This document shows positions 13,357 through 29,721 of a stretch of DNA of 64,000 bases, piece after piece. The stretch is taken from the NCBI GenBank assembly GCA_027919835.1, contig JANVFP010000010.1, positions 930,001-994,000 on the forward strand, given 5' to 3'. Origin of the DNA: Lentinula raphanica (taxonomy: Eukaryota > Basidiomycota > Agaricomycetes > Agaricales > Omphalotaceae). Under the pieces are notes generated by a model that saw only the letters and a list, made by a program, of their open reading frames with translations, was not told the origin of the DNA and made no database searches. Numbering within the stretch: the stretch's first letter is position 1; each line of letters begins with the position of its first letter. The translations under genes and the position numbers were made by a program.

Positions 13357-14189
13357 TATGACGTTATTTCTGTACAAAAATGATTAGCGCCTTGGACACT
13401 ACTCAGCGCCTTGTGAATTCCTCAGCGCTTCAGAATACAATGCCGAATATATTCTTTTCGCCGGAACTCCGGCATTTTTTCGCCAGCGCACTCCACAACA
13501 AATCAGCGCACTCCACGAAAAATCAGTAGCCCTTAGAAATTCCCACTTGTCCCTTTAATTTTAAGGCATCTCATGGTCAGGAAATGGCAAATATACAATT
13601 CCTTCTTCATCTCCTTACCCTTATATTGGTTAATAACTTTCATCAGCTCTCATCAGAGCTACCTTATCAGATCTTATCAGGCTTTAGCGCCCAAATCAGA
13701 TGACTCTCACTCATAGTTCCAGACAAATCTGATGATCGGACTGAATCTGAGTGATCGGAATGGTGGGAATCGACACCTGACCAGGTCACATGATAGCCAC
13801 ATGCTCCTGAGAAGTAATGTTTTCGCGTCTCCTCAGGTCCATCTCCTTACATATGAGCTGTTTATTGGCTATGTTCTCTACATTAATGGTATTCAAGAGC
13901 ATTCTCCAGTACTACTAGCAGCTTTAAAGTATATAATGAGCCAGGAAATGCTAAATGATGAGCCAAAACTTAAAGTACTATTTCAGAGTTGTAAAGCGCT
14001 ACTGATTTTTCGTGGAGTGCGCTGATTTGTTGTGGAGTGCGCTGGTTTTACGGAGTGCGCTGGTGAAAAAATGCCGGAGTTCCGGCGAAAAGAATATATT
14101 CGGCATTGTATTCTGAAGCGCTGAGGAATTCACAAGGCGCTGAGTAGTGTCCAAGGCGCTAATCATTTTTGTACAGAAATAACGTCATA
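13357..14189. mobile_element. Foldback MITE with about 180-bp TIRs
   Basis: 833 bp. The left arm (13357-about 13540) starts TATGACGTTATTTCTGTAC; the right arm (about 14005-14189) is its near-exact reverse complement. Arms contain AGCGCCTTGG, CCGGAACTCCGGCA and repeated CAGCGCACTCCACAACAAA blocks. The first nine bases and the TTAGCGCC and GCGCACTCC motifs are shared with the ends of the large element that begins 28 bp further on, so this looks like its non-autonomous relative. I could not see a matching 6-bp target duplication (TCTATG left, AAAATG right). The centre has one 97-codon ORF of no recognised type. Confidence 0.85.
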
Positions 14190-14216
14190 AAAATGAGACT
14201 GGGTGAGACTCCAGAT

Positions 14217-14490
14217 TATGACGTTCCTTTTGTACTATTATTATTAGCGCCTTATATACTCCTCTGCGCCTCATCCTTATCAAATTCAACTCCTTTTTGG
14301 CTAGAACTCCTGGCTTATATATATATATTTTGCGCACTCATGTATTGCTGCGCGCTGAGGTTTTACTAGCGCACTCCACATCATACAACTAGCGCACTCC
14401 AGAGCAAGTAGCGCACTCCAGAGCAAATAGCGCACTCCAGAACAAGTAGCGCACTCCAGAACAAGTAGCGCACTTCAGTCCTTATAAGCA
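14217..14490 (+). repeat. Left TIR of the large element, with subterminal AGCGCACTCCA array
   Basis: Starts TATGACGTTCCTTTTGTAC. Near 14368-14475 there are six or so copies, about 21 bp apart, of AGCGCACTCCAGAACAAGT (variants AGAGCAAGT, AGAGCAAAT, ACATCATACAACT), with two further GCGCACT units to about 14500. Such subterminal arrays are commonly transposase-binding sites. The transposase stop codon lies only about 55 bp further in. Confidence 0.8.
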
Positions 14491-15630
14491 GCGCACTCCA
14501 TGTAAAGGTGGCACACTTGCCATATATGTATGTGTAGCTATGTACATTTTCTATCTAATTTGCTCTACTATCAAGAATATAATCCATAGTGTGTAAAGAC
14601 CGTGCCCACTGTAATGCACGAGGAAACCAAATATGGTGAGGAAGGGGAATCTGAAGCTCCCGATGACCCCGTTTACCATAGGGTATAACTTCGAAAGAAG
14701 GATAGCCATCGTCGCCCCATTCGTCTTCAGTCAGAAAATAGTCTACAGGTATCCAGTTGCTGCGTTCCAATCCCTCCATAATTCTACCGAATAAGTCAGC
14801 TTCTCGCGATTGATCCAAAAATGGCGACCGATGCTTTGGGACTGAAACAGGTGCATGGTAATAATTAGTACTCTGCTCCTTTCGAATGTGATCGGTAACA
14901 AGCTTTCGTGCTTCTTCTGTATCTTCAACGCCTTCCGCACCATAATATTGAAGAATTTCTGGATGAATCGTGTTATCGACATCACAGTACAGACCATTCC
15001 GTAGTTGTCCCATGAGTCGCATATCCTAATTCAAGCTCGATTAGTATTTTTTGCAGCCAATTGAGACTATCCAATACAAATACATACGTTTGGACTTTTA
15101 TCGTGACCTTTGCCTGAAATAGGATGGGAATTCCACATTTCCATGAACTCTTGACAGTCGTCGTTGATAGACGGAAGAAAGAGAAGGTGGAGGAGCCATA
15201 GATGATGAGGATTGTTTCGCTGGAGACCATGAAGCCGCTCAAGACGAAGGAAGAATGCCCGCCATCCTCGCGCAAACTGGGAACCTACTTCGGGCCATGT
15301 CCGTTCAATACGAGAACTGAAGTGTGAGTTGCCCCACATGGCACTTGCTCGATTCGGACCCCGACGCATGATCATTTCGACAGCAACCAAGATGTTTTCT
15401 CCCCCACGATCAAGGCGAACTCTGGAAGGCCATCCAAACTGGTTGGTAGCCCCTCGAAAAATGTCAAGAACTGTTGAAGCCCGATTATTGGAGCTAGCAC
15501 GTATACCGGTTGCCTGAGCAATGTATGATCAGCAGGTGGCTGATGAAGCTGAGATTCAGCACCTACCATACGCGAATCACCATCTACGCAGGCATGAATA
15601 ACTATTCCCCAGAAAATCAGCTTGTGGTAG

Positions 15631-17372
15631 TGTTATGAAGCATAACATAAACTCTACCACCCCCACAAATCTCTCAAATATTCCCTGAATACATCTGGCA
15701 TTTATCCCTATTTTTATGGTATTTTTCCTTATTTTCTAAGGCCTTAACAAGCCCTACAAGCCCCTGTTCTCGTTGGCCGAGCCTACGCCGAGGTGGCGCT
15801 TATTCGGCGTCTCGGCATCGAAACACAGAAGCGCCGTATTTTACTTTCTCCCACGCTTCTTCCTCTTCCTCGCTCCTCATCCCTTCGGCCACCACTTCGT
15901 TTCTCAACACGACAGGACACCCAGGACAACACCCAGGACGATAGGAGACGAGGGAGGGCACATAGAGACGACGAGGGAACGACCATAGAGGGCTGGAGAC
16001 CGCGAGGACACGGTCTGCCAGCCAGTCTCTTAATCAGTGCGTAATCCGTTCATCCGAACGGATTACCCTCACTAACATAGCTTCGGCAACAGGTTAGGGC
16101 AATCGTCGACTCGCGTCGACGATTCCTGACTCGCCTCAAGCACTTCCGGATCCTCACAACCCCAAACAGACCACGGCTCCGCCACTTCGTGCTAGATCCC
16201 CGGTACCGACACGTCAACATCGCCCTCAAGCTCCCTTTGTTCCGTTTGTCCCTTCACCGCCTCGTTTTCGTCATCATCGGCCTCGTTACAGCTCGTTTAG
16301 TCGTCTTTGATGACGATATCCGTTCCGACAGCCTTTTTCCTGTCGAACCCTCGGTCCCGCTATGTCAACATCGTCGTCGGTCTGTCCTTTTTCCGTTGCC
16401 CACCTCGTCAGCTCGTTCTCGTCATCCTCGGCTCGTCTCTATCTTGCCTGGTCATTCTTGATGACATTGAGCAACCGGCACCCAAGTTGTGCCATTTAAC
16501 TTCAGTACACCCCACTCACGCTATCTATGGTTCGTGTACGCATCGTTTGACCGCATTTGGCACTCCTTCCCCCTGCTCAGCTCGCTTATGTGTGTTTGGC
16601 ATCTTCGCGAGTCGCTCTCGTCGTTGCCGACTCCCATACGCATTTCGCCGGCTCCCCCTTGTCTTCTCATGTCAGCTCTGCTTGCTCGACCTATCCGAGG
16701 GATTGCCGCCCCTCGTCATTAACTTCTGGTCACCATTGCCGAGTCGACAACCATCCTCGGCCCTTTTCCTTGTTGGTACGTATTCTTCTCGACCCAGACG
16801 AGTCAAGACGAGTCATGGCGGCTCCTCGTCTGGTGTCTTATGATACTTTCTTATTACTTTTACATTTAATCTTTTACACTCGTAAGCGGCCGGATCGACG
16901 CGTACTCACGCCGATCCGTGTCGTTTCGAGTCAATATCATTCATAACGCGTCGTCGTTATACAATAACGACGCGTTTACACGTCCCGGCACTGGGACGTG
17001 TCATCACAATTATCATTGTGGTGACACGTCCTCAAGCCGACATTTACTTTATATTACCTTACCTTTTATATCCAATACCTACAGAAACCTATATAAGCTG
17101 TATGTATTTTGTAAACCAATCCCCAGATTGGTTATTTTTACAGGTTCTCAATATTATTCGGCTTTATTCTCTCATCTTGGTCTGGCTAATATCCAGTGTA
17201 ACAACAAATTGTATTATCAACATCCAGGTTTCAGTAACCACTAACCCCTTGGAGTCCAGATCCTCGGTGTAGACCTATTAGCCTAGCAGCTTGTCTACAA
17301 CGTTCTTTGGACTGAACGCTCGTAGCCTTCGTCTTTGGTGCCGTCGAGGGATAGAGCAACGAGCACCTAACA
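15631..17372 (+). repeat. 5' LTR (1,742 bp)
   Basis: Begins TGTTATGAAGCATAACA, itself a perfect 7-bp hairpin, and ends GAGCACCTAACA. C/T-rich, no coding potential of its own. Carries a series of short hairpins (see findings) and a TATA motif at 17090-17097. Confidence 0.92.
17090..17097 (+). promoter_or_regulatory. Candidate TATA box of the 5' LTR
   Basis: TATATAAG in an AT-rich stretch about 275 bp from the end of the LTR, a sensible place for a U3/R boundary. The same motif is at 21004-21011 in the 3' LTR, where it could drive transcripts outward into the transposase remnant. Confidence 0.4.
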
Positions 17373-17476
17373 TAATAACCAATCTCTTGCTGCCTCCTTT
17401 TGGGTCTACCACTTATCTGGATTCATCGGAGAGATTCGGTTCTTAACATAATAACCGAACTCTTGCTGCCTCCAGT

Positions 17477-19552
17477 ATGTCTACACAGACCAGCGGGACG
17501 GAGACTAGGTTATATTCATATCCCCAGATGGCTCCTACCTATCCTCCAGGATACTATGGACCTTCCGCAAACCCAGGATGGGGTTCTTATTCACATACCC
17601 CAGGACAAGTGATGCCAAACACTTATGTCCCATATCCTCACCAACCTGCAGTACCTGCTCCAGCATTAGCAGATGGTCTCGGTTGGCAATGGCAACCCCC
17701 ACCACCTCCACCACCCTTACCCAATCATCACTATTCTCAAACAACTTTGGTACCCACCCGTCATGGTCGTAATAGCTTTCCGCAAAGACTCATAGAGACA
17801 ACCCAGACTCCAGTTTCTCAACTTCGAGTGCAAAATAGCAGTATACGTCAAAGACCGGTGTACATCCCATTTGTGGAAACAATGACGACAATCGCTATAC
17901 CTCCTTCATGCCACACTTCCACAGTGCCTGTCTATCAACCACCTGCTAAACCTCGAACTATGAAGACAGGTGTTACGAGTCCCAAGGTGTCACCTCCATC
18001 CTCCCGTCCAAGGACCCACACCTCTATGCCAGCACAATCAGTGGAATCTAAGGCAGATCAGACTATTTTGACTACCCAAAGTCCATCCATAAGCCCTCCA
18101 AAGCCTTCTGCACCCTCCGTGAAGGTTGAGCACTCTTGTTCTGCTGTCCTTACCCATGTTCCACAGTCCTCACCAGTGTCTGCTTCAGTAACAGAAAATA
18201 TGTCAGATAACTTGGTCCAGCTACTGGGTGCTCGATGTCACCGCTTTGCATTGTCTATTGGTTCACGGGATCATTTAGATCGCTCCCCAGAGGAATGGAT
18301 CAGTCTAGTGTCCCAGTTGGACATTGTTCGGCCACTGTTTTTCCAAGATGCTCTCTGTCAGAATCATGTTCAATTGGAGTTTGCTCAGATTACTCAGCAG
18401 ATCTTGGCCTTGCATTCGAAACAGTCTACGTTACATCAGCAAGCTCCATTCAGTACAACAAGTTCATCCACTGGAACTCTCAACATTGGTGATCATTCTG
18501 TTCTGGCTGCTACAACGAAGTCAAATACCAGCCAAAGGTTCGAACTAGTTCCACAACATGTGTCGGAGCTGGAAAAACCTAGTATGACTTGTGCTAAACC
18601 TAGGGCAGATAATTTGGACTTGGCTCAGGCAGAGGTTTCCAAGACTTCCCAGCTTGAAACTTCTAAATTCTCTTGGTCGCGTGTTGGAAATTGGGCTGCA
18701 CCTACTGTTGCTTCACCAAAAGTCACCGACCATGATATAGAAGTAAATAGATCTGGAAGTCAGGACTATAGGCAACCACTGAATGGAAAGGATCATTGGA
18801 ATCTGGTTACAGCTAATGGTACCTCACTTGCTCCCCGTTCAAAAAGTGACTACCGATATGCTAACCATACAACAATACAGAGTCCGGTTGACATTAGGAG
18901 AATGGGCTTCAATCAATATTCCTGGGGTTACGGAGAAAGTTCAACTGTTCCAGTAGCCCCAATTCCCCGACAGGCACCGGTAGGGTTACAACCACCCCCT
19001 GAGCCACCTCCGCCACTAGCATCATCTGTATCATTGTCTGCGGAGACCCTTGATCAGCCCGCAAGCCCCTGTTCCCCTTATCCCCACTCCAGAAGTTATC
19101 AATGGAGCAGCTCTACAAGTCCAAACAGGTTCATTGATGACATGTTTTCTACAACAGTAGACTTGCAGGAAGACTCTGACACAGATGACGATGAAGTGGA
19201 ACCAACTTCTGCAAATATTGTGGAAGAAGAGGAAATGGGTCCTGGGCAAGATGAAGATGATGACACTGCTACTGACCAGGGTGAAGGCATGCCCAATGAG
19301 TTCTGTTCCGAGTGCGAAAATCAGTTCACAGAAGCAGACACATACTACTGTGATGACTGTGCATTAGAGGAAGAAATCTTTGGAAGGAATGAAAATATGG
19401 AAGACTTTGGCTTATACAACCAAGAATATGAGGAAGACAGGGAAGAACAGCCAGATCAGGAATATTCTGAGGATGCAGGCTATAATACTGACCCCGCCAG
19501 CATTCCCAATCAGGAAGGGGAGACTAGCCTGGAGGAGGGAGTAATGTTATGA
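17477..19552 (+). CDS. Orphan 691-residue protein of the LTR element (Gag-like by position)
   Basis: Single exon between the LTRs, starting at the first good ATG after the 5' LTR. Residues 1-90 are Pro/Tyr/Gly-rich (GYYGPSANPGWGSY, then a poly-Pro run). A Ser/Thr/Pro-rich region follows to about 230. Next is a helical block (about 235-310) starting DNLVQLLGARCHRFALS and containing EEWISLVSQLDIVRPLFF, which is the only part that looks folded. The C-terminus is strongly acidic and holds a four-Cys motif CSECENQFTEADTYYCDDC (about 614-632), like a small zinc ribbon rather than a CCHC retroviral knuckle. No enzyme motif seen. By position it may be a capsid-like protein; that is inference only. 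Confidence 0.75.
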   Translation: MSTQTSGTETRLYSYPQMAPTYPPGYYGPSANPGWGSYSHTPGQVMPNTYVPYPHQPAVPAPALADGLGWQWQPPPPPPPLPNHHYSQTTLVPTRHGRNSFPQRLIETTQTPVSQLRVQNSSIRQRPVYIPFVETMTTIAIPPSCHTSTVPVYQPPAKPRTMKTGVTSPKVSPPSSRPRTHTSMPAQSVESKADQTILTTQSPSISPPKPSAPSVKVEHSCSAVLTHVPQSSPVSASVTENMSDNLVQLLGARCHRFALSIGSRDHLDRSPEEWISLVSQLDIVRPLFFQDALCQNHVQLEFAQITQQILALHSKQSTLHQQAPFSTTSSSTGTLNIGDHSVLAATTKSNTSQRFELVPQHVSELEKPSMTCAKPRADNLDLAQAEVSKTSQLETSKFSWSRVGNWAAPTVASPKVTDHDIEVNRSGSQDYRQPLNGKDHWNLVTANGTSLAPRSKSDYRYANHTTIQSPVDIRRMGFNQYSWGYGESSTVPVAPIPRQAPVGLQPPPEPPPPLASSVSLSAETLDQPASPCSPYPHSRSYQWSSSTSPNRFIDDMFSTTVDLQEDSDTDDDEVEPTSANIVEEEEMGPGQDEDDDTATDQGEGMPNEFCSECENQFTEADTYYCDDCALEEEIFGRNENMEDFGLYNQEYEEDREEQPDQEYSEDAGYNTDPASIPNQEGETSLEEGVML

Positions 19553-21286
19553 AGCATAACATAAACTCTACCACCCCCACAAATCTCTCAAATATTCCCT
19601 GAATACATCTGGCATTTATCCCTATTTTTATGGTATTTTTCCTTATTTTCTAAGGCCTTAACAAGCCCTACAAGCCCCTGTTCTCGTTGGCCGAGCCTAC
19701 GCCGAGGTGGCGCTTATTCGGCGTCTCGGCATCGAAACACAGAAGCGCCGTATTTTACTTTCTCCCACGCTTCTTCCTCTTCCTCGCTCCTCATCCCTTC
19801 GGCCACCACTTCGTTTCTCAACACGACAGGACACCCAGGACAACACCCAGGACGATAGGAGACGAGGGAGGGCACATAGAGACGACGAGGGAACGACCAT
19901 AGAGGGCTGGAGACCGCGAGGACACGGTCTGCCAGCCAGTCTCTTAATCAGTGCGTAATCCGTTCATCCGAACGGATTACCCTCACTAACATAGCTTCGG
20001 CAACAGGTTAGGGCAATCGTCGACTCGCGTCGACGATTCCTGACTCGCCTCAAGCACTTCCGGATCCTCACAACCCCAAACAGACCACGGCTCCGCCACT
20101 TCGTGCTAGATCCCCGGTACCGACACGTCAACATCGCCCTCAAGCTCCCTTTGTTCCGTTTGTCCCTTCACCGCCTCGTTTTCGTCATCATCGGCCTCGT
20201 TACAGCTCGTTTAGTCGTCTTTGATGACGATATCCGTTCCGACAGCCTTTTTCCTGTCGAACCCTCGGTCCCGCTATGTCAACATCGTCGTCGGTCTGTC
20301 CTTTTTCCGTTGCCCACCTCGTCAGCTCGTTCTCGTCATCCTCGGCTCGTCTCTATCTTGCCTGGTCATTCTTGATGACATTGAGCAACCGGCACCCAAG
20401 TTGTGCCATTTAACTTCAGTACACCCCACTCACGCTATCTATGGTTCGTGTACGCATCGTTTGACCGCATTTGGCACTCCTTCCCCCTGCTCAGCTCGCT
20501 TATGTGTGTTTGGCATCTTCGCGAGTCGCTCTCGTCGTTGCCGACTCCCATACGCATTTCGCCGGCTCCCCCTTGTCTTCTCATGTCAGCTCTGCTTGCT
20601 CGACCTATCCGAGGGATTGCCGCCCCTCGTCATTAACTTCTGGTCACCATTGCCGAGTCGACAACCATCCTCGGCCCTTTTCCTTGTTGGTACGTATTCT
20701 TCTCGACCCAGACGAGTCAAGACGAGTCATGGCGGCTCCTCGTCTGGTGTCTTATGATACTTTCTTATTACTTTTACATTTAATCTTTTACACTCGTAAG
20801 CGGCCGGATCGACGCGTACTCACGCCGATCCGTGTCGTTTCGAGTCAATATCATTCATAACGCGTCGTCGTTATACAATAACGACGCGTTTACACGTCCC
20901 GGCACTGGGACGTGTCATCACAATTATCATTGTGGTGACACGTCCTCAAGCCGACATTTACTTTATATTACCTTACCTTTTATATCCAATACCTACAGAA
21001 ACCTATATAAGCTGTATGTATTTTGTAAACCAATCCCCAGATTGGTTATTTTTACAGGTTCTCAATATTATTCGGCTTTATTCTCTCATCTTGGTCTGGC
21101 TAATATCCAGTGTAACAACAAATTGTATTATCAACATCCAGGTTTCAGTAACCACTAACCCCTTGGAGTCCAGATCCTCGGTGTAGACCTATTAGCCTAG
21201 CAGCTTGTCTACAACGTTCTTTGGACTGAACGCTCGTAGCCTTCGTCTTTGGTGCCGTCGAGGGATAGAGCAACGAGCACCTAACA
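19545..21286 (+). repeat. 3' LTR (1,742 bp)
   Basis: Same as the 5' LTR at every stretch compared (offset 3,914 bp). Its start overlaps the stop codon of the internal ORF by 8 bp (ORF stop 19550-19552). Confidence 0.92.
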
Positions 21287-22197
21287 GGTAGCCATCAATA
21301 TGCCACAATGCATTCGGCCTAGAAACCTTGTACGGCTGTCGCTCGATCAAGCGCCTATGACGGATGACTCGTCCTAAGCGATCCACGCGTTGTAAGGATT
21401 CTATGACCCTTCTCCGTTGCACTCGAACACCGTGCATGTTCAAGAACCCACGAAGATAGCGTAAACCAGAATTGACCTTGGATGCTTTGAAAAGGCGGGT
21501 AATAGTGTCGAGTTGTTCATCGGTGAGTGTTGAAAATTTGTAATCGACTCCATGCCTTTTCAGATAGCGGCGCATAGTGTGTCGATGTACTCCAGTCAGC
21601 TTTGCAAGACGAGTTATAGAAATACGTCGTCCTTTTCCAATGGCCTGCTGCAAGAAAATTGGGTTGATAACCTTCCGAGGTCGACCTGGTCTGCCAGTCC
21701 ATATAACAGACACAGGTTGTAGGTAGTCTACCCCAATCGATTCACTACAGGATAATATATGGTAGTGTTTGATGTATATTTGATAAGGAAACGACTGACC
21801 TTCCCTTGACGGTTTTTTCTGCATGAAGCAGCTCAGCAATCAAGGTGCCATACGCATCACTTATAGTATGGATCCACTCTGCTGGAAGATGCTCGTCATA
21901 CATTGCAGCTTCCAGTGCGGGAATTGTGTGTACTGCTTGGTCCATAACAACTCGCTTGTGAAATTTGACACGGTGTAGCTCATAGCTCCCACTATTGAGA
22001 AGGTGACAAGCAGCCTCATACCGATTGTTCAACAGGTTGAACGCGCCCAGAACATTTGGCGACCTGATAATATCAGCAGGAGGTGGTGGTGGAAGAGGCA
22101 TGGCAGCTTGCACAGCCAATCACGTGTCGTCTAGAATCCAATGCTTTAAGTGCGAAATGAGTACATAATCCCCATCGTTTGTTTTTTCTCTTCTACC

Positions 22198-23351
22198 ATG
22201 GCCAACGGCGACCAACCACAAGACAATAATGTATGTATCGTCTGATTTCTTATTTCAGCCTGTCTCAAAAATTTTATCAGCCACCAATGGCTACTCAGAC
22301 GGTCAGGTCTGAGTACTGGAACTCTGGCAGAATCATTGTCTTGAGTGCAGTCAGCGTAAGTCAAAATAACAACCAACGACATGTACATGTTAATCCACAG
22401 TACTACTTTATTAGAACAACATTCCTTCCCAAATCCATCTTTTCAGAGAAAATGTTGATGTTCTCGGACGCTATTCCTCTGTTCTGAACGATTTATTGAA
22501 TATACCTACGAGCCCCGACTCTACTGAGGGGACAGAGGCCAACCCTATCGTGTTACCTAACACTATCTCTGCCGAGGCGTTTCGTACCTGTCTCAGGTTC
22601 TTTCATGGTCGGTATGTAGCATTTTTCTGATATATAACCTTTCACGTAGCACGCTACTGAACCATATTTTAGGGCCTTGACAGAATACAGAGCTACTCCC
22701 TCAAATATTCTGACTCTGCTGGAGTTGGGTTCTCTGTTTGAAATGGAGTCGGTTCTAGCTTTTGCAATCCCCAAACTCCCCTTGCTCAATCTCGACCCAG
22801 TCGAGGTACTACGCCTGGCTCAAATGTACCACGTTCGCCCTGGCGTGAAGTACTGGATCAAGGGCGCTATTGAACGGCTTCTTCCTAAGCGTCTGTCTCA
22901 CTACACGAAAGAGGAAGAACGAACAATAGGCAAAGCGTACCCTCTGATTGCTTGTACTCGCGAAGAACTGGATATCAGACGGAGGTATCTAGCAGTGAGG
23001 CCTTACACCCTGGTTAGCAGCACTGGCTCGACAAACCACGAGGAGACATGCCAGAAGGGGTGGAACTTTGGATGGTATCAGCATATTACACCGAATATAC
23101 TTCACCCAGAGAGACCACCACTTACATGGGATGGTCTTATCCAGCTTGTCGAACGCACAGATTTTAACCTCCTCAGGGACAGCTGCAAGAGAGCTACAGT
23201 CCAACAGATGCGCCTGTTCCATGACTTCCCCCATGTATCTCAAATCGTCAATCATCTGGTGGAGGACATTATCACTGTCTACAAAATCCAACGAGAAGAG
23301 CCCAAGGAAATTCCCAACTTGAATGAAGACACAGAGATCGAAGATGCTTAA
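22198..23351 (+). CDS. BTB/POZ-domain protein
   Basis: Begins MANGDQPQDNN, 78 bp from the divergent transposase start. Chaining exons (introns about 22231-22280, 22355-22418 and 22613-22673) gives PPMATQTVRSEYWNSGRIIV, then NNIPSQIHLFRENVDVLGRY, SSVLNDLLNIPTSPDSTEG and ISAEAFRTCLRFFHGRAL. This is the Agaricomycete BTB pattern in which an RVHR-like motif precedes the dimer helices. After it come an alpha-helical tail (ILTLLELGSLFEMESVLAFA) and a C-terminal part ending NEDTEIEDA. BTB domains dimerise and often act as CUL3 adaptors; partner and role here are unknown. It shares a short divergent promoter with the transposase. The exon-3 acceptor was chosen to keep the frame open and is the weakest joint. 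Confidence 0.72.
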
Positions 23352-23729
23352 TAATAATATCTGTGCGTTTGACCTCCTGCCTACCTAGCTCTGTGAATGG
23401 ATCTGACTATGGCTATAGACCCACTCGCTTACTCAACCTGCTCACTACGCTACCCTTTCATATCTGGAGTAAATTCGTAGCCTCCATACACTATCGAGCA
23501 CAGTATATAGAACTACTTAGCATATCAGGAGTCCTTTTAATAATAGTTACAATGTTGAATATCTATGAACTGGCATCTCCTCGTATCCTCTGATATCTGA
23601 TCCAACACATACGGTAAGCTGAGCTAGATGATAGGGTTGAGGGTTTCAGCTAGACGAGAAATACGACCCGAACGAGTGGTCATTTGAACGGGGTGTGTGT
23701 ATTGAACTCAAACGTTTTGACCAGCCGGG

Positions 23730-24481
23730 CTTGGTGAACGAGGCCTGAGACAATGCACTGGAGCGAGTTCGGAGAAGGTTGCCCTGATAGGGAAGATCTT
23801 ACAGGAGGCATCGTGGAGGGAAAGGCTGAACGATGTACGACAGGCTGCGGTCGCCGGGATCACCGCCACTCTCAAGACGTACAACATGGACATCAAAGAA
23901 ACGATGAAGGCGATGCAGGACGAGACGAAGGAGATGACGAAGAAGATGGAGGAGGTATCGGCAGGTATTAGATCAAGAGCGGTCCACGAACAGATGTGGC
24001 AGCAGGAGTAAGTAGCAGCAGAGAAAGTATTGCTGGCCCATGTGAGTGAGACTTTAGCGGAAGAGGCAAAGGTAGGAGTAGTGAAAACTGCGGTGTCGGC
24101 GACTTGGGGGTGGATAGGCATCATGTGGAGACTGAGCGTGGCCATGGCCATGGCAAAATTTTCAGTGGCAAGCTCTTGTAATGCAGAATTCACAGAGATA
24201 GACGAGGCAAAATCTTGTTGTCCAAAGGCAGAGGAGGTTGAGTCTCGGACAATGTTGATGGTGAAGCCTTGATATTGATCTCGGAAGGTCGTCCAGTAGG
24301 TTTTGGTTGAGACTAGGTAGAGGTTTTTGCAGTCTCCGAGTTCAGTATATCGCTTGAAGGCGTCTTGTCTCGAAATTTGATATTTGTTGATGAAAGGTAG
24401 TCGATCACTGAGCGGAATGCAGAATACAGCATGGTCATGAGAAGCCGGGATGTTGTGAGCATTTGCGTTGTCGTTGAGCAT
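23730..24481. pseudogene. Degenerate coding segment, identity unclear
   Basis: Both strands are open here. The plus strand reads SSEKVALIGKILQEASWRERLNDVRQ (shown in part) and DIKETMKAMQDETKEMTKKM (about 23770-24010), charged and coiled-coil-like, and looks like genuine old coding sequence before a stop at 24009. The minus strand has a 257-codon ORF (24481-23708) whose first half (DRLPFINKYQISRQDAFKRY) also looks protein-like. My reading is a junction of two decayed gene fragments. I cannot name a family. Confidence 0.35.
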
Positions 24482-24685
24482 TTGCGTTGTCGTTGAGCGT
24501 TTGCGTTGTCGTTGAGCGTTGAACGTTGTTGAACGTTGAATGTTGTTGAACGTTGAACTTGAACTTGAACGTTAACGTTGAACTTGAACGTTAACGTTGA
24601 ACTTGAACGTTGCGTTGAACGTTAACGTTCAACGTTCAACGTTCAACGTTGAGTGTTGAGTGTTGAAACGACTCAACGTTGAACT
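24458..24685. repeat. GTTGAACGTT-type simple array
   Basis: About 220 bp built from GTTGTCGTTGAGC, GTTGAACGTT, GAACTTGAACGTTAAC and CAACGTTCAACGTT units. Because AACGTT is self-complementary and unit order reverses near 24620, the array has strong hairpin potential. It ends the degenerate segment above. Confidence 0.8.
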
Positions 24686-24774
24686 ATTAGGAGACGAGGT
24701 CCGATTAGGCGCCGAAATAGCGCTATGTGAATTATTTTAAAACGCCGAATGGCAACAATAAACTCCCGCGGCCT

Positions 24775-24968
24775 CCTTTCTCAACAACCACCACCACCCT
24801 TCTCAACCACCACCACCCTTCTCAACCACCACCACCCTTCTTAACAACTACCACCACCCTTCTCAACCACCACCACCATCCTTCTCAACAACCACCACCA
24901 CCTCTGTCAACAACCACCACCACCTTTCTCAATAACTACCACCACCACCTTTCTCAACCACCACCACC
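24775..24968. repeat. CAACCACCACCACC microsatellite
   Basis: About 190 bp of CCACCACCACCCTTCTCAAC-like units directly before the ATG of the dioxygenase gene. It gives an artificial 98-codon ORF rich in Thr, His and Pro. It is probably the 5' UTR or promoter of that gene. Confidence 0.85.
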
Positions 24969-27221
24969 ATGGGGAAACACCGTTGGTACTGGGCCGTCTT
25001 GGCCATCCTCGCGCTGGAATTAGGTGAGTTTTACAGCTACACATACCTCCTAGGGCTACAGAGGTGCATTGGGTGGCAAAGCCGTCGATTCGGGGCCGTC
25101 TTGTTGGGGCGTAGAGCGTTCTCGCCAGGACGTCAACCCCAACAAAACACCCCACCTCGAACCGCGGTTTGACCCAACGCCTACCGGCATCCGCGCGCGC
25201 TATCAAACTCTTGATGTACAGCAGCTGAAAAAAATTTAGGTTTTGTTGCCGCAGTCGACGTACAGGTCATCACTCGGACGGTAAGTGCCTTCAAGAGCAA
25301 GTGATAAACCAGCCTAACGTTGGGGTCAGACTCGCTCTGGCCATGTCTTTGGCTTTATCTATGCCAGTGTTTCCTTACACTCCCGGATTATCCAAGCTCA
25401 AGAAGAAAATCAGCAAATTCCACTGGATTACGTAGATGCCTCCCAGGTCAATGTCCTGCTGCAAGAGACCCATGCATCCCAACCCATGACCGCTCACTCC
25501 TCCATGCTAGCCCCCCACCCTTCGACGTCAACCCCTCGCGGTTCGACGTCGACCCCTCGCGGTTTGACATCGACCCCTCGCGGTTTGACGTTGACCCCTC
25601 GCGGTTCGACGTCCGGTTCAACGTTGACCCCTCGCGCTTCGACGTCCGGTTCAACGTTGACCCCTCGCGCTTCGACGTCCGGTTCGACGTCGACCCCTCG
25701 CGCTTCGACGTCGACCCCTCACGATTCAAGGTCGACCCCTCACGATTCTTCCACGTCGACCCTTCCCAGTATGTTGGATTTAGATGGGGATGAAGACGAA
25801 GGCTACTCAGATGAGGAAGAGTCAGAAGATGAGGAGCCTGAGCGCGTATCGCGGAAGCGTAAACGCACAGTAGAAGACGACGAAAACTACGAGAACGAGC
25901 ACAAAGGCAAAGGCAAAGGCAAAGGGCGGCCTCAAAAACGTCCTCGTCTGGTGGCTCCTCCAACTCCAAAACGTTCACCAAGCCCCCATCGTGACCGCCG
26001 TAAGGTTCAGCGTTCAAACAAGAGGCGGGCTCGAAAGGGGGCCATTTATGGATCAACGTCGTCGGATCATCGAGCCCGCTTGGCAAAGTCAGCATCCGTT
26101 CTGGAGGCTGAATTTGACAGTGGCGATATCCTCAGGTTCACGTCGGGCTATCTAGGCCGCGAACGGGTCAAGAAGGAGGTCAAAGCGGAGCGGCGAATCT
26201 ATGAGCTGGAGGAGCTGGTTGGAGAGGATTCACTTTGGAAATTTCAAGTTCTTCGGGCAAACTTGGAGGATACGTAAGTGCCTACTAAACCTATGCTGGG
26301 CCTACATATTGACGAACAGGACCAGTGGACCAACGCTTATTGCAGATACCAATGGTCGGGTTTTCGCCTCACGTATCCCACCTCCGGCCGGGGACCCAAC
26401 GTATCATCAGTCGGCAGAGGAGGCAGCACAAGTCTTGGACGAATATCGTCCTCTTTTCTTCAAAGAGAACAAGCCACTTCCCCAGCATAGACGGGGGGAT
26501 TTTCCTGTGAAGGCCATGGGGATATCTTACGGTGGAGGACAAGAGGTATGTGTCCAATCCTACTTCAATTTACACTGTAAAGACCTTTGATTTTCAGGAG
26601 GCCAAGGAGCTGTACCAGTCAAACAAGGATCAAGAGCTTTTAAATCGCATTCGCGACATGGCTTGCTTCCAGCGTTTGGCAGGCCATGCATCTTCAGCCT
26701 TTTTAACATGGGCTCCTCGCCTCTATTTGTTCTATCAAACCTACATGAAAAAGCTCCAGGAAATGATCCCCTCTCTGTTGTTCAACTTCTGGAACAGCGT
26801 CTTTGCCTGCTGTACCCTGAATCTTGGGCCCACCACTACCACGGTTGAACATGTTGATCATATGAACTATGTCTATGGGTGGTGTGCCATCACGGCATTA
26901 GGCAACTTTGACTTTCGACTGGGAGGCCACCTCGTTTTATGGGATCTCAAACTGGTTGTGGAGGTTCCTCCTGGTTGGACAATGATGATACCATCTGCTT
27001 TCCTCCGGCACTCCAATACCAGTCTACAGCCTGGTGAAACTCGTTTTTCTCTAACACAGTACACTGCAGCAGGCCTCTTCAGAATCCTCGATGATGGAGG
27101 GGTGCCGCGAACCAAAATGACGCCGGAGCAACTGGCACATGCAGAACGAGAGCAGATTCAGCAAATTACAAACGCGTTGAATAAGTATTGCACACTGGAT
27201 GAGCTTTTAGCACAGGCATAG
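24969..27221 (+). CDS. TET/JBP-like 2OG-Fe(II) dioxygenase
   Basis: Homologue of enzymes that oxidise the methyl group of 5-methylcytosine or thymine in DNA. Exons: 24969-25023, 25255-25280, 25330-26273, 26320-26545, 26598-27221; all phases agree. It starts MGKHRWYWAVLAILALELVD. A low-complexity segment of STPRG repeats follows, then acidic (DLDGDEDEGYSDEEE) and basic (SRKRKR; GKGKGKGRPQKRPR) nuclear-type stretches. The C-terminal half is the catalytic core. GHASSAFLTWAPRLYLFYQ leads to the iron motif in TVEHVDHMNYVYGWCAITA (HxD), GGHLVLWDLKLVVEVPPGW, the distal His in PSAFLRHSN and the 2OG-binding Arg in GETRFSLTQY. All expected catalytic residues are present, so it is probably active. In mushrooms this family is expanded and linked to transposons; here it lies inside a TIR element. 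Confidence 0.8.
25512..25760. repeat. 21-bp coding minisatellite in the dioxygenase gene
   Basis: About a dozen units of TCGACGTCGACCCCTCGCGG and variants, some with a 9-bp insertion (GTCCGGTTC), encoding STSTPRG / STSGSTLTPRA. The frame is kept because units are multiples of three. All forward frames and the minus strand are open, giving several mirror ORFs that should be ignored. Confidence 0.85.
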
Positions 27222-27406
27222 CGTACATGGTGTATCGTGAAGTATATCGTTACCAAGCCAGACCCAGTGTACATATAATACAGTATTGCACAAAATCTGA
27301 TGTAAGACTATATCACATAAGCCAAAAAGCAACTGGTTTTAAATCGAGCGTGCTACCTTCAAAACATCCACCACGTTCACTATCATTAAACTACTAAATA
27401 CCTAGA

Positions 27407-29063
27407 ATGCTACGACCTGCAAGCAATAATCGTCGTCGAACCAGCCTACCACTCAAGTCAAAAAAGTCCAAAATTTCTAGGCAAAAGCCATTGGTGGTAA
27501 AACCCAAGTCGTCTTCCTCAGAGGATGAGCCCGTCGTAGAGGAAGAACCCGTAGTAGAGGACAAGCTTGACATGGAAGATGACTCTGACATGTCCGATAC
27601 TGTGAAAGCAGCGATCAGAGAGTTGACAGCAAAGGCTGGGACCTCCACAATCTCTGGTTCTGCTCTTGCAAGGGCTGTCAAACAATCATCCTCGTCAAAG
27701 CTGGAACAGGCCCACCAGGAGGCTAACAAGGGTTTTCGCCCAGTCACTCAAACTCGCCCGGGCACTCAAACTAGAACAAAGGGCAAAGCAAAGGCAAAAG
27801 CACCAGAGGTAAAGTCAATATTTGTGCTACGTTGATATTTCTTCTAACCATCTGAATAAGCCCACTGAGCGTCACGAAATCAGCTGTGTCGCTATTTATC
27901 CATATGGCGTTGAAGATGCCGTGAGTACATATGCCTGCGTATTTCTATCATACTGAGTTGTATGTTGTTAGGATTCAGACAATGATGACAGTGTGAAGGC
28001 ATTGTCCCGGCTCGAGGCCAGCATTGGCACCATTCGCAATCTGTGTGACATGGGACTTTGCATCGAGTCCACACCAGCTTCTCCTTTACATCTGGATCCT
28101 ACTTGGACCGTAAAGGAAGTAGACCGCCAGCTGGTGAAATGGCTTCCACTGCCAATGTCGTATCTCAACGAGGAGTCCATTTTTCGACCAGAGAAAAATC
28201 CAAGGTATCCAAAATACGACGGCAAAAATCGATTTCTTCCGGAGCTCTATCTATGCGAACGCGTACGGGGCAGTATCAAGCCATTATCTGGACCGAGTGT
28301 TATCTTCCCGAATGGCGAATTGCTCTGGCAAACTGCGGGTGACAACGGAAAGTCCGGGGTGTCAAGACGAAAGCTTATTTTTGGTAAGTTAACATTCGTC
28401 AATCCATAGGTTAAAGTAACACCGTTCTGTCCTCAGTTACACGAAAGCCAATGCCCAAGAAGACTCTCGATTTTTTTAGAGCAGTGGTACAAGAGGCAAA
28501 GAAGCACGATGTGTCCCTTCTTGCTGCGAAATACTTAGTCCGAGCCAGTCAGGAGGAGACTGACGATGATATGGACAATGACCACAGTCAAGGTAACGTC
28601 AAAGACCAAGTCAACAGCGATGAGGACGACAATGTGCCTACTGAAGTTGATTCAGACGCAGACAGTAAGCTTTCGAACGCCTTTAACGAGGAGAATTGAT
28701 CAGCTAAAGGTTTCTTACGCAGAGGTTGGTCCATCAAAGCCTGCAAAGCGCGTTCGACTGTTGGTCGGGGAAGAACCTGACCGGGAACCACCCAAGAAAA
28801 TCAGAAAATCTACCAGCAATTGCCGCAACCCAATCGTAGTATCGAGTGGAGACGATTCAGATACCAATAGTGTTACCGCAGGCTCCAGTTCTAGCCGGCT
28901 TCGTCTCCGTCCTCGTCCAATCCGTCCAGCTACTGCAGTGCCTCCAGCTCCTGCCGCTTTGGACGAACCAGCTCCTTCTCCTCCCAAACCGGATTTTCTA
29001 CGTTATTACATAGGGCCAGAGCCATCGCTCGAAAATCTTGACCCCTGGAATGGTATACCTTGA
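27407..29063 (+). CDS. Unrecognised nuclear-type protein next to the dioxygenase
   Basis: Starts MLRPASNNRRRTSLPLKSKK, 185 bp after the dioxygenase stop, same strand. Exons run to about 27809, 27861-27919, 27972-28384, 28439-28651 and 28717-29063, with introns of roughly 50-65 bp. A basic N-terminus is followed by an acidic run (EDEPVVEEEPVVEDK). The central part, VKALSRLEASIGTIRNLCDM to RPEKNPRYPKYDGKNRFLPE, looks folded. The C-terminus is acidic (TDDDMDNDHSQ), then basic (KPAKRVRLLV; PPKKIRKS), and ends DPWNGIP. No enzyme motif seen. The composition fits a chromatin- or DNA-associated protein, but that is inference. Its place in the TIR element suggests it is cargo or a transposition accessory. 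Confidence 0.65.
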
Positions 29064-29439
29064 TGTCTTGTCCCTTCATTTCTCCCGCATGTCTCTCTTA
29101 CAGCTGCTTCACTTATCCTACATTCCTGTCACTCATCTTGCCACTCATCTATTTGTTGAGCCTACATTACGTTCATAGATACGCTCCTTTTATCTCAACC
29201 CAGCTTCAATACTTATTAAATTTGGAATAATGCATCAATAGCACAACCCCTTAATTCTATACCTTCATCCCACATCTCTACCTCACCGTCTTTACCACCT
29301 ACCATTGATCTCTACCTCACCGTCTTTACTACCCACATTACTATTATATACACAGTCCCTACATGTTATACAACGTTGGTTTACTATGCTGATCTCACTG
29401 CCCTGAGGGTTTAAGTTGTGAAATAATCTTCAATAGATT

Positions 29440-29715
29440 GCTCTAAGTACTTGCTCTGGAGTGCGCTACTTGTTCTGGAACGCGCTACTTGTTCTGGAAC
29501 GCGCTACTTGTTCTGGAACGCGCTACTTGCTTTGGAGTGCGCTAGTTGTATGATGTGGAGTGCGCTTAGTGAATACTCAACGCGCAGCAATGCATGACTG
29601 CGCAAAAAAAATATACAAGCCAGAGTTCTGGCCAAAAAGGCGTTGAATTTGATAAGGATGAGGCGCTAAGTAGTATATGAGGTGCAAATAATAATAGTAT
29701 GAAAGGAACGTCATA
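29440..29715 (-). repeat. Right TIR of the large element, with subterminal array
   Basis: Reverse complement starts TATGACGTTCCTTTCATAC. It repeats the left-end landmarks, including about five units of the AGCGCACTCCAGAGCAAGT type; here several units read GCGCGTTCC instead of GCGCACTCC. Units on this side have diverged together from those on the left. Confidence 0.8.
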
Positions 29716-29721
29716 CCAGAT

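Follow-up and report, generated by a model that had tools for sequence, protein, structure and literature searches.

A 64,000-bp stretch of the Lentinula raphanica genome (contig C10, positions 930001-994000; hereafter the window) contains a transposon with terminal inverted repeats (TIRs) in which a D,D(34)E transposase is accompanied by a TET/JBP dioxygenase, a BTB-like protein and a fourth, species-restricted protein, and the four genes move together as a single unit. The assembly comprises 49 Mb in 75 contigs, and all genome-wide counts refer to this one assembly. We read the element as a cut-and-paste transposon of the IS3EU/GingerRoot type with a three-gene payload, whose TET enzyme would oppose host silencing, and we place the probability of this reading at about 0.75.

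Borders and copies of the element

The element occupies positions 14217-29715 (15,499 bp; no strand assigned) and is directly abutted by exact CCAGAT target site duplications at 14211-14216 and 29716-29721. Its inverted termini, TATGACG..CGTCATA, measure approximately 260 bp; the left TIR (14217-14480, plus strand) and the right TIR (29452-29715, minus strand) have approximate inner borders, and both carry subterminal repeats with units of 19 nt. The outer arms (14217-14309 and 29623-29715) are 89% complementary and the inner arms (14368-14501 and 29433-29566) 84% complementary, and the left terminus used as a query recovers the right terminus with an E value of 1e-85 and 87% identity. These data agree with a first-pass annotation of the sequence, which had proposed flanking duplications and inverted termini with matching subterminal arrays. 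A long terminal repeat (LTR) retroelement that is foreign to the original unit is nested at 15631-21286 (no strand assigned), where it interrupts the transposase gene just past the first catalytic Asp (HIDG). As its LTRs are identical over 1742 nt and it is flanked by its own 5 bp duplication, GGTAG, at 15626-15630 and 21287-21291, it is a recent arrival. Removal of this retroelement and one GGTAG copy leaves 9,838 bp, close to the ~9.8 kb first estimated, with the transposase gene on one strand and the BTB-like, TET and fourth genes on the other.

A terminus search of the genome located a second terminal pair on C28, between which the whole unit aligns to the window copy in blocks of 92-98% identity. 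This copy is without the nested retroelement of the window and has its own 7 bp duplication, CGGGCCA. Between the BTB-like gene and TET, ~0.9 kb aligns poorly in the two copies; a minus-strand open frame of 287 codons (23708-24571) is found between these genes in the window, in a stretch mostly unaligned to the C28 copy. Searches with the transposase, fourth and BTB-like genes located further elements on C11, with exact ends 15.1 kb apart and the duplication CACATC, and on C13, with exact ends 25.0 kb apart and the duplication TCAACC. Comparison of these two over 2.76 kb inward from the left terminus gives 98.99% identity, and their flanks differ. C7 carries a fifth, degraded copy, for which no left end was recognised in the stretches examined.

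The gene order transposase, BTB-like, TET, fourth gene is common to all five copies, with TET present in four; at C13 no TET match was found among the genome matches listed, nor in a 2.85 kb stretch of the copy. All four full copies (window, C28, C11 and C13) end in TATGACG..CGTCATA, with a target duplication of 6 bp in three and 7 bp in one, and three of these four terminal pairs around a transposase enclose the dioxygenase, C13 being the exception. The payload proteins of the diverged copies are only ~45-60% identical, yet the genes and their order are conserved. Because the copies on C28, C11 and C13 hold the matching order between their own terminal pairs and have their own duplications, the genes move as one unit; the earlier proposal of a single TIR transposon enclosing the TET/JBP, BTB and transposase genes is thus borne out by three further elements. 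Within this assembly, neither of the two outcomes that the first-pass annotation had named as contradicting its proposal was seen.

The transposase, the dioxygenase and their companions

The transposase gene (14555-22101, minus strand), split by the nested retroelement, encodes a helix-turn-helix (HTH)-like region and a D,D(34)E core of the rva_4 family (Pfam PF24764). The window piece matches rva_4 with an E value of 2.9e-34, and the apparently uninterrupted reading frame of the C11 copy matches it with an E value of 1.9e-57, together with weak rve and weak HTH matches and no zinc integrase (HHCC) domain among its Pfam hits. The second Asp and the Glu are 34 residues apart, as expected of the integrase-like D,D(34)E enzyme that had been predicted, and Pfam gave no hit to the KDZ (Kyakuja/Zisupton) transposase domain in the transposase of the element. 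Among the best 120 of 158 relatives, those named as Agaricomycetes share 32-51% identity, and animal rva_4 proteins are also present; a PDB sequence search returned four matches with E values of 0.21 or above (methionine synthase, ribosomal S13), which we took as chance. By published criteria (PMC10045372), IS3EU elements end in TA..TA and as a rule duplicate 6 bp of their target. With its TA..TA ends, duplications of 6-7 bp and a DDE core that has no HHCC zinc domain, the assignment of the element to the IS3EU/GingerRoot superfamily is well supported by sequence features.

The TET/JBP dioxygenase gene (25486-27221, plus strand) has exons to 26273, at 26320-26545 and at 26598-27221, with an uncertain 5' start. 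Its last exon retains the HxD motif (H85 and D87, as HVD), the distal His (H138) and the 2-oxoglutarate-binding Arg (R149). A structural model of a homologue 78% identical to the window protein reached a predicted local distance difference test (pLDDT) score of 92.2, and in structural comparison ranked CcTet of Coprinopsis cinerea, TET2, NgTet1 and CMD1 ahead of FTO and AlkB. On this comparison, together with matches to Pfam Tet_JBP in seven of 82 homologues (E ≤ 0.01), the modelled dioxygenase has a TET fold and is nearer to TET than to AlkB or FTO, in support of the original TET/JBP label. Searches of PDB sequences gave no hit with the TET profile and, with the TET protein, one match at E 0.53 (RanGAP1, in an acidic low-complexity stretch), likewise taken as chance.

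The residue five positions after the first iron ligand (His+5) is Asn and is invariant across the 82-sequence alignment; Asn1387 of TET2 is presumably also at His+5. In CcTet this position is Gly331, and Asn1387 of TET2 hydrogen-bonds 5-methylcytosine (5mC) and clashes with N6-methyladenine (6mA) (PMC11040006). The position of CcTet Asp337 is Cys, also invariant in the 82 sequences, where both equivalences were set by counting from the iron-binding His and not by residue-level alignment; overall, identity to CcTet is 12-16%. Given an Asn at His+5, as in TET2, we infer that the dioxygenase would prefer 5mC. Kojima (2025) describes an AG type of TET with Asp at the position of CcTet Asp337 and Gly or Ser at 331, and a PE type marked by HxE (PMC12730594). 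The HxE mark is absent from the window TET, which has HVD and so differs from the PE type, and its residues do not clearly correspond to the AG type. To the extent that they align (25 of 30 loci retrieved), KDZ-adjacent TETs in the genome also have the Asn and Cys, a pattern that is hard to square with the AG type as published. In the TET copies on C11 and C6 the iron-ligand Asp of HxD is replaced by Asn, giving HNN and HLN, respectively.

The BTB-like gene (22198-23351, plus strand) has probable exons at 22198-22230, 22281-22355, 22415-22611 and 22673-23351, with intron borders placed by eye. Pfam BTB is the sole family hit of its protein, at E 0.011 and 16.3 bits, under the cut-off of 20.5 bits; the C7 homologue scores 19.4 bits against the same cut-off, and the C11 fragment gives no hit. 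The BTB label of the first-pass annotation thus falls short of the score threshold, and as a borderline call it is the weakest of the gene labels. A PDB sequence search with this protein gave no hit. The gene has six matches in the genome, five at the five element loci and a weak sixth on C41. At the latter (C41:144650-146952) ~1.6 kb separates the BTB-like match from an oppositely oriented rva_4 match, an arrangement like that in the element, and the pair is perhaps an older relative.

The fourth gene (27407-29063, plus strand) has five exons, which when spliced give a product identical to an NCBI L. raphanica protein; it encodes 480 amino acids and is rich in charged low-complexity stretches. 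Its six genome matches are confined to the five element loci. Scoring of the 7993 best word-sharing candidates gave eight protein matches including itself, all from L. raphanica and with several locus prefixes. A model built from these eight sequences had a pLDDT of 34.2 and was unusable, and we make no claim about its fold.

Proposed function and competing explanations

In the mechanism that we propose, the D,D(34)E transposase would bind the long TIRs, probably at the 19-nt subterminal repeats, excise the element and join it to a target with a stagger of 6 bp, or occasionally 7 bp. Short non-autonomous derivatives that share these ends are probably mobilised by the same enzyme. The TET/JBP protein would most likely counter host silencing by oxidising 5mC in the DNA of the element that encodes it. 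The BTB-like protein is probably an adaptor for protein-protein contacts, and the product of the fourth gene probably acts as an element-restricted nuclear partner. In Agaricus bisporus nearly all CG methylation falls on transposons, and oxidised 5mC in Coprinopsis is found around Kyakuja elements, other transposons and centromeres (PMC12730594). By analogy with these fungi, anti-silencing through 5mC oxidation would be the likeliest role of the enzyme, with unaimed oxidation as its main rival.

Comparison of the copies indicates constraint on the genes. Between the window and C28 the ratio of non-synonymous to synonymous divergence (dN/dS) is 0.20 for the transposase (15 changes), 0.49 for the BTB-like gene (a weak estimate from 13 changes), 0.105 for TET and 0.168 for the fourth gene; between the window and C7 it is 0.159 for TET and 0.149 for the fourth gene. 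Against C11 the transposase gives 0.064 with dS ~1.9, near saturation, and the fourth gene 0.167 with a saturated dS of 2.6, and the TET ratio is not computable as dS is saturated. Values well below 1, at ~0.1-0.5, argue for selection on the payload genes as well as on the transposase, and suggest that all four genes were kept by selection for much of their history.

Several observations weigh against a functional anti-silencing transposon. No copy examined has all of its genes whole: the window transposase is split by the nested retroelement; C28 has a stop codon in the transposase and an LTR element inside TET; the HxD of the C11 TET has become HNN, with loss of an iron ligand; C13 has no TET match; and C7, besides its unrecognised left end, has lost a few TET residues. 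As every copy examined is damaged, current activity is unproven. The window TET protein itself matches no Pfam family. A search for the empty site that the first-pass annotation had suggested, using the joined flanks with one CCAGAT and up to three mismatches, gave no matches in this genome, though this is expected of one assembly. The LTR element inside the C28 TET gene carries a zinc-knuckle-like reading frame.

The alternative that survives best, though we consider it rather improbable, is that the dioxygenase works for the host, or acts unaimed on all transposons and not on its own element. The genome holds 88 merged TET-like loci, at least 21 of which have a KDZ match no more than 5 kb away where 2.0 are expected, and for Agaricomycotina unaimed action has been suggested (PMC12730594). 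These loci derive from 90 of 95 TET matches, five second pieces having been dropped, and two PF20515 matches; match counts are lower bounds, and neighbourhood expectations assume uniform positions, which clustered transposons violate. The PF20515 loci have, by eye, a different motif and look like another family. Against a host-serving or unaimed enzyme, the fourth gene is confined to the element, and the BTB-like gene is found either there or beside another rva_4 match, so that the payload, taken together, is tied to the element.

An appreciably less likely explanation is that the transposon picked up the TET, BTB-like and fourth genes as passengers and gains no benefit from them. TET modules do exist outside the unit, since the similarity of the C14 and C21 loci to the window is limited to the TET gene, bar one 52 bp match at C21 (1.5 kb flanks compared), as if TET moves as a module; the missing TET match at C13 and the lost iron ligand at C11 point in the same direction. 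Passenger genes would, however, hardly account for the same genes and order in copies whose payloads have diverged so far, or for dN/dS well below 1 in all genes, with the BTB-like gene the weakest case. Separate insertion of the termini around resident host genes, or segmental duplication, is scarcely credible: a related short element in the left flank (13357-14189) indicates that termini of the same family cluster here, but the copies on C28, C11 and C13 match in content within one terminal pair and have their own duplications and different flanks, which already contradicts it.

The history of the element appears to be mosaic. Window and C28 differ at 39 of 3393 aligned sites up to ~23290 and at 249 of 5365 sites beyond (summed by hand; Fisher p 2.6e-21, with 5400 as the second total in the test), and the step falls at the 3' end of the BTB-like gene. 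Synonymous divergence is 0.024-0.026 for the transposase and BTB-like genes versus 0.12 for TET and the fourth gene. This step in both total and synonymous divergence between the halves suggests that recombination probably gave one copy the payload half of another lineage, and the age gap between the halves is a possible route for the passage of TET between transposons. Only tentatively, and with the odds leaning against it, do we extend the anti-silencing interpretation to an undescribed lineage of epigenetic-escape transposon, in which a 5mC-selective TET not of the CcTet type, a BTB adaptor recruiting or removing a silencing factor and an element-restricted nuclear protein would act jointly to sustain expression, the halves having been swapped by recombination; the co-operation of these genes, raised in the first-pass annotation, is something that we infer here as well. 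A family of paired copies in one genome, some with a broken TET and one with no TET match, makes self-protection by TET from cytosine methylation directly testable.

Known systems and related loci

TET-carrying IS3EU elements have been reported from seven rust species (Pucciniales) and from Tuber indicum, and each of them also has an alpha-kinase gene (Kojima, 2025; PMC12730594). They resemble the mushroom element in their TA..TA ends, 6 bp duplications, IS3-like transposase and internal TET/JBP gene. The rust families end in TAYGG..CCRTA, whereas the mushroom element ends in TATGA, and the rust and Tuber elements have the alpha-kinase opposite the transposase with TET between them, in place of which the mushroom element has the BTB-like and fourth genes. 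The genome has 12 matches to alpha-kinase (PF02816), all on contigs other than those that carry the five copies. The Agaricomycotina carriers of TET named by Kojima are Kyakuja, Zisupton, EnSpm, Plavaka and Helitron2, with duplications of 7 bp for Kyakuja, 8 bp for Zisupton and 2-3 bp for Plavaka, and neither Lentinula nor BTB appears in the main text (PMC12730594). KDZ and Plavaka elements of Agaricomycetes resemble the present element in that TET/JBP travels with a DNA transposon in mushrooms, and KDZ-linked TETs of the sequence clade of the window TET occur in this genome; they differ in their transposase, which is not the rva_4 enzyme. TET/JBP and KDZ are reportedly the subject of a paper by Iyer et al.

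The first-pass annotation had contrasted KDZ, as the known partner, with an integrase-like transposase here; the enzyme is indeed rva_4 with no KDZ hit, but the contrast is partly overtaken by the TET-carrying IS3EU elements already published from rusts and a truffle (PMC12730594), whose companion set differs. Within the literature searched, we know of no published IS3EU element with TET from Agaricomycetes. What is new is TET capture by an IS3EU-like transposon in a mushroom, with a BTB-like and a species-restricted gene as constant companions, together with a TET that has a TET2-like pocket residue and the apparent mosaic history of the element.

Neighbourhoods of TET and rva_4 were compared across the genome after collapsing the rva_4 list by hand to 51 of 87 matches (extra exon pieces dropped); KDZ was treated likewise among the matches listed. 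The window TET has no KDZ match within 20 kb among the matches listed. None of the 88 TET loci lies within 5 kb of an rva_4 match (0.9 expected), and 13 lie within 15 kb (2.7 expected), four of which belong to the present element family. A divergent rva_4/TET arrangement recurs at a distance of 14.46-14.51 kb (C1:751439/765902, C18:217652/232157 and C40:79302/93768) and at 8.3-8.8 kb (C2:1137569/1145850 and C34:285402/294217), hinting at further TET-carrying rva_4 families. Outside the present family, other rva_4-TET pairs at 7.7-8.8 kb disagree in strand, except C2 with C34; the remaining pairs, differing in strand, may be due to chance. A second rva_4 family is seen at C14, C18, C40 and part of C1.

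The TIR pattern with up to two mismatches has 53 + 62 sites in the genome versus 84 + 89 for a reversed control; as the control gave more sites, hits with two mismatches were treated as background. The sites used were 37 with 0-1 mismatch and two ends with two mismatches, namely the right end of the window element, accepted from the alignment, and a left end on C5, accepted only for its partner 0.9 kb away. Pairing by hand gave 17 terminal pairs, four with a transposase, two short with a nested retroelement (C29 and C46) and 11 short (0.8-1.4 kb); four of the 37 sites were unpaired, one of them (C7:1017459) 13 kb beyond the degraded C7 copy. At the 12 pairs with both flanks the duplication is 6 bp in seven and 7 bp in three, with a 5-of-6 near match in one and none in one; on C1 two right ends compete, and the nearer, which yields no duplication, was set aside from this count. 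The short same-end elements were probably moved by the transposase of the large element. One short non-autonomous relative with the same TIR type lies in the window at 13357-14189, 27 bp left of the large element, and has no flanking duplication of its target, whereas 10 of the 12 pairs examined have one. The retroelements nested in the short elements on C29 and C46 have reverse-transcriptase-like and tyrosine-recombinase-like frames, by eye of the DIRS/Ngaro type.

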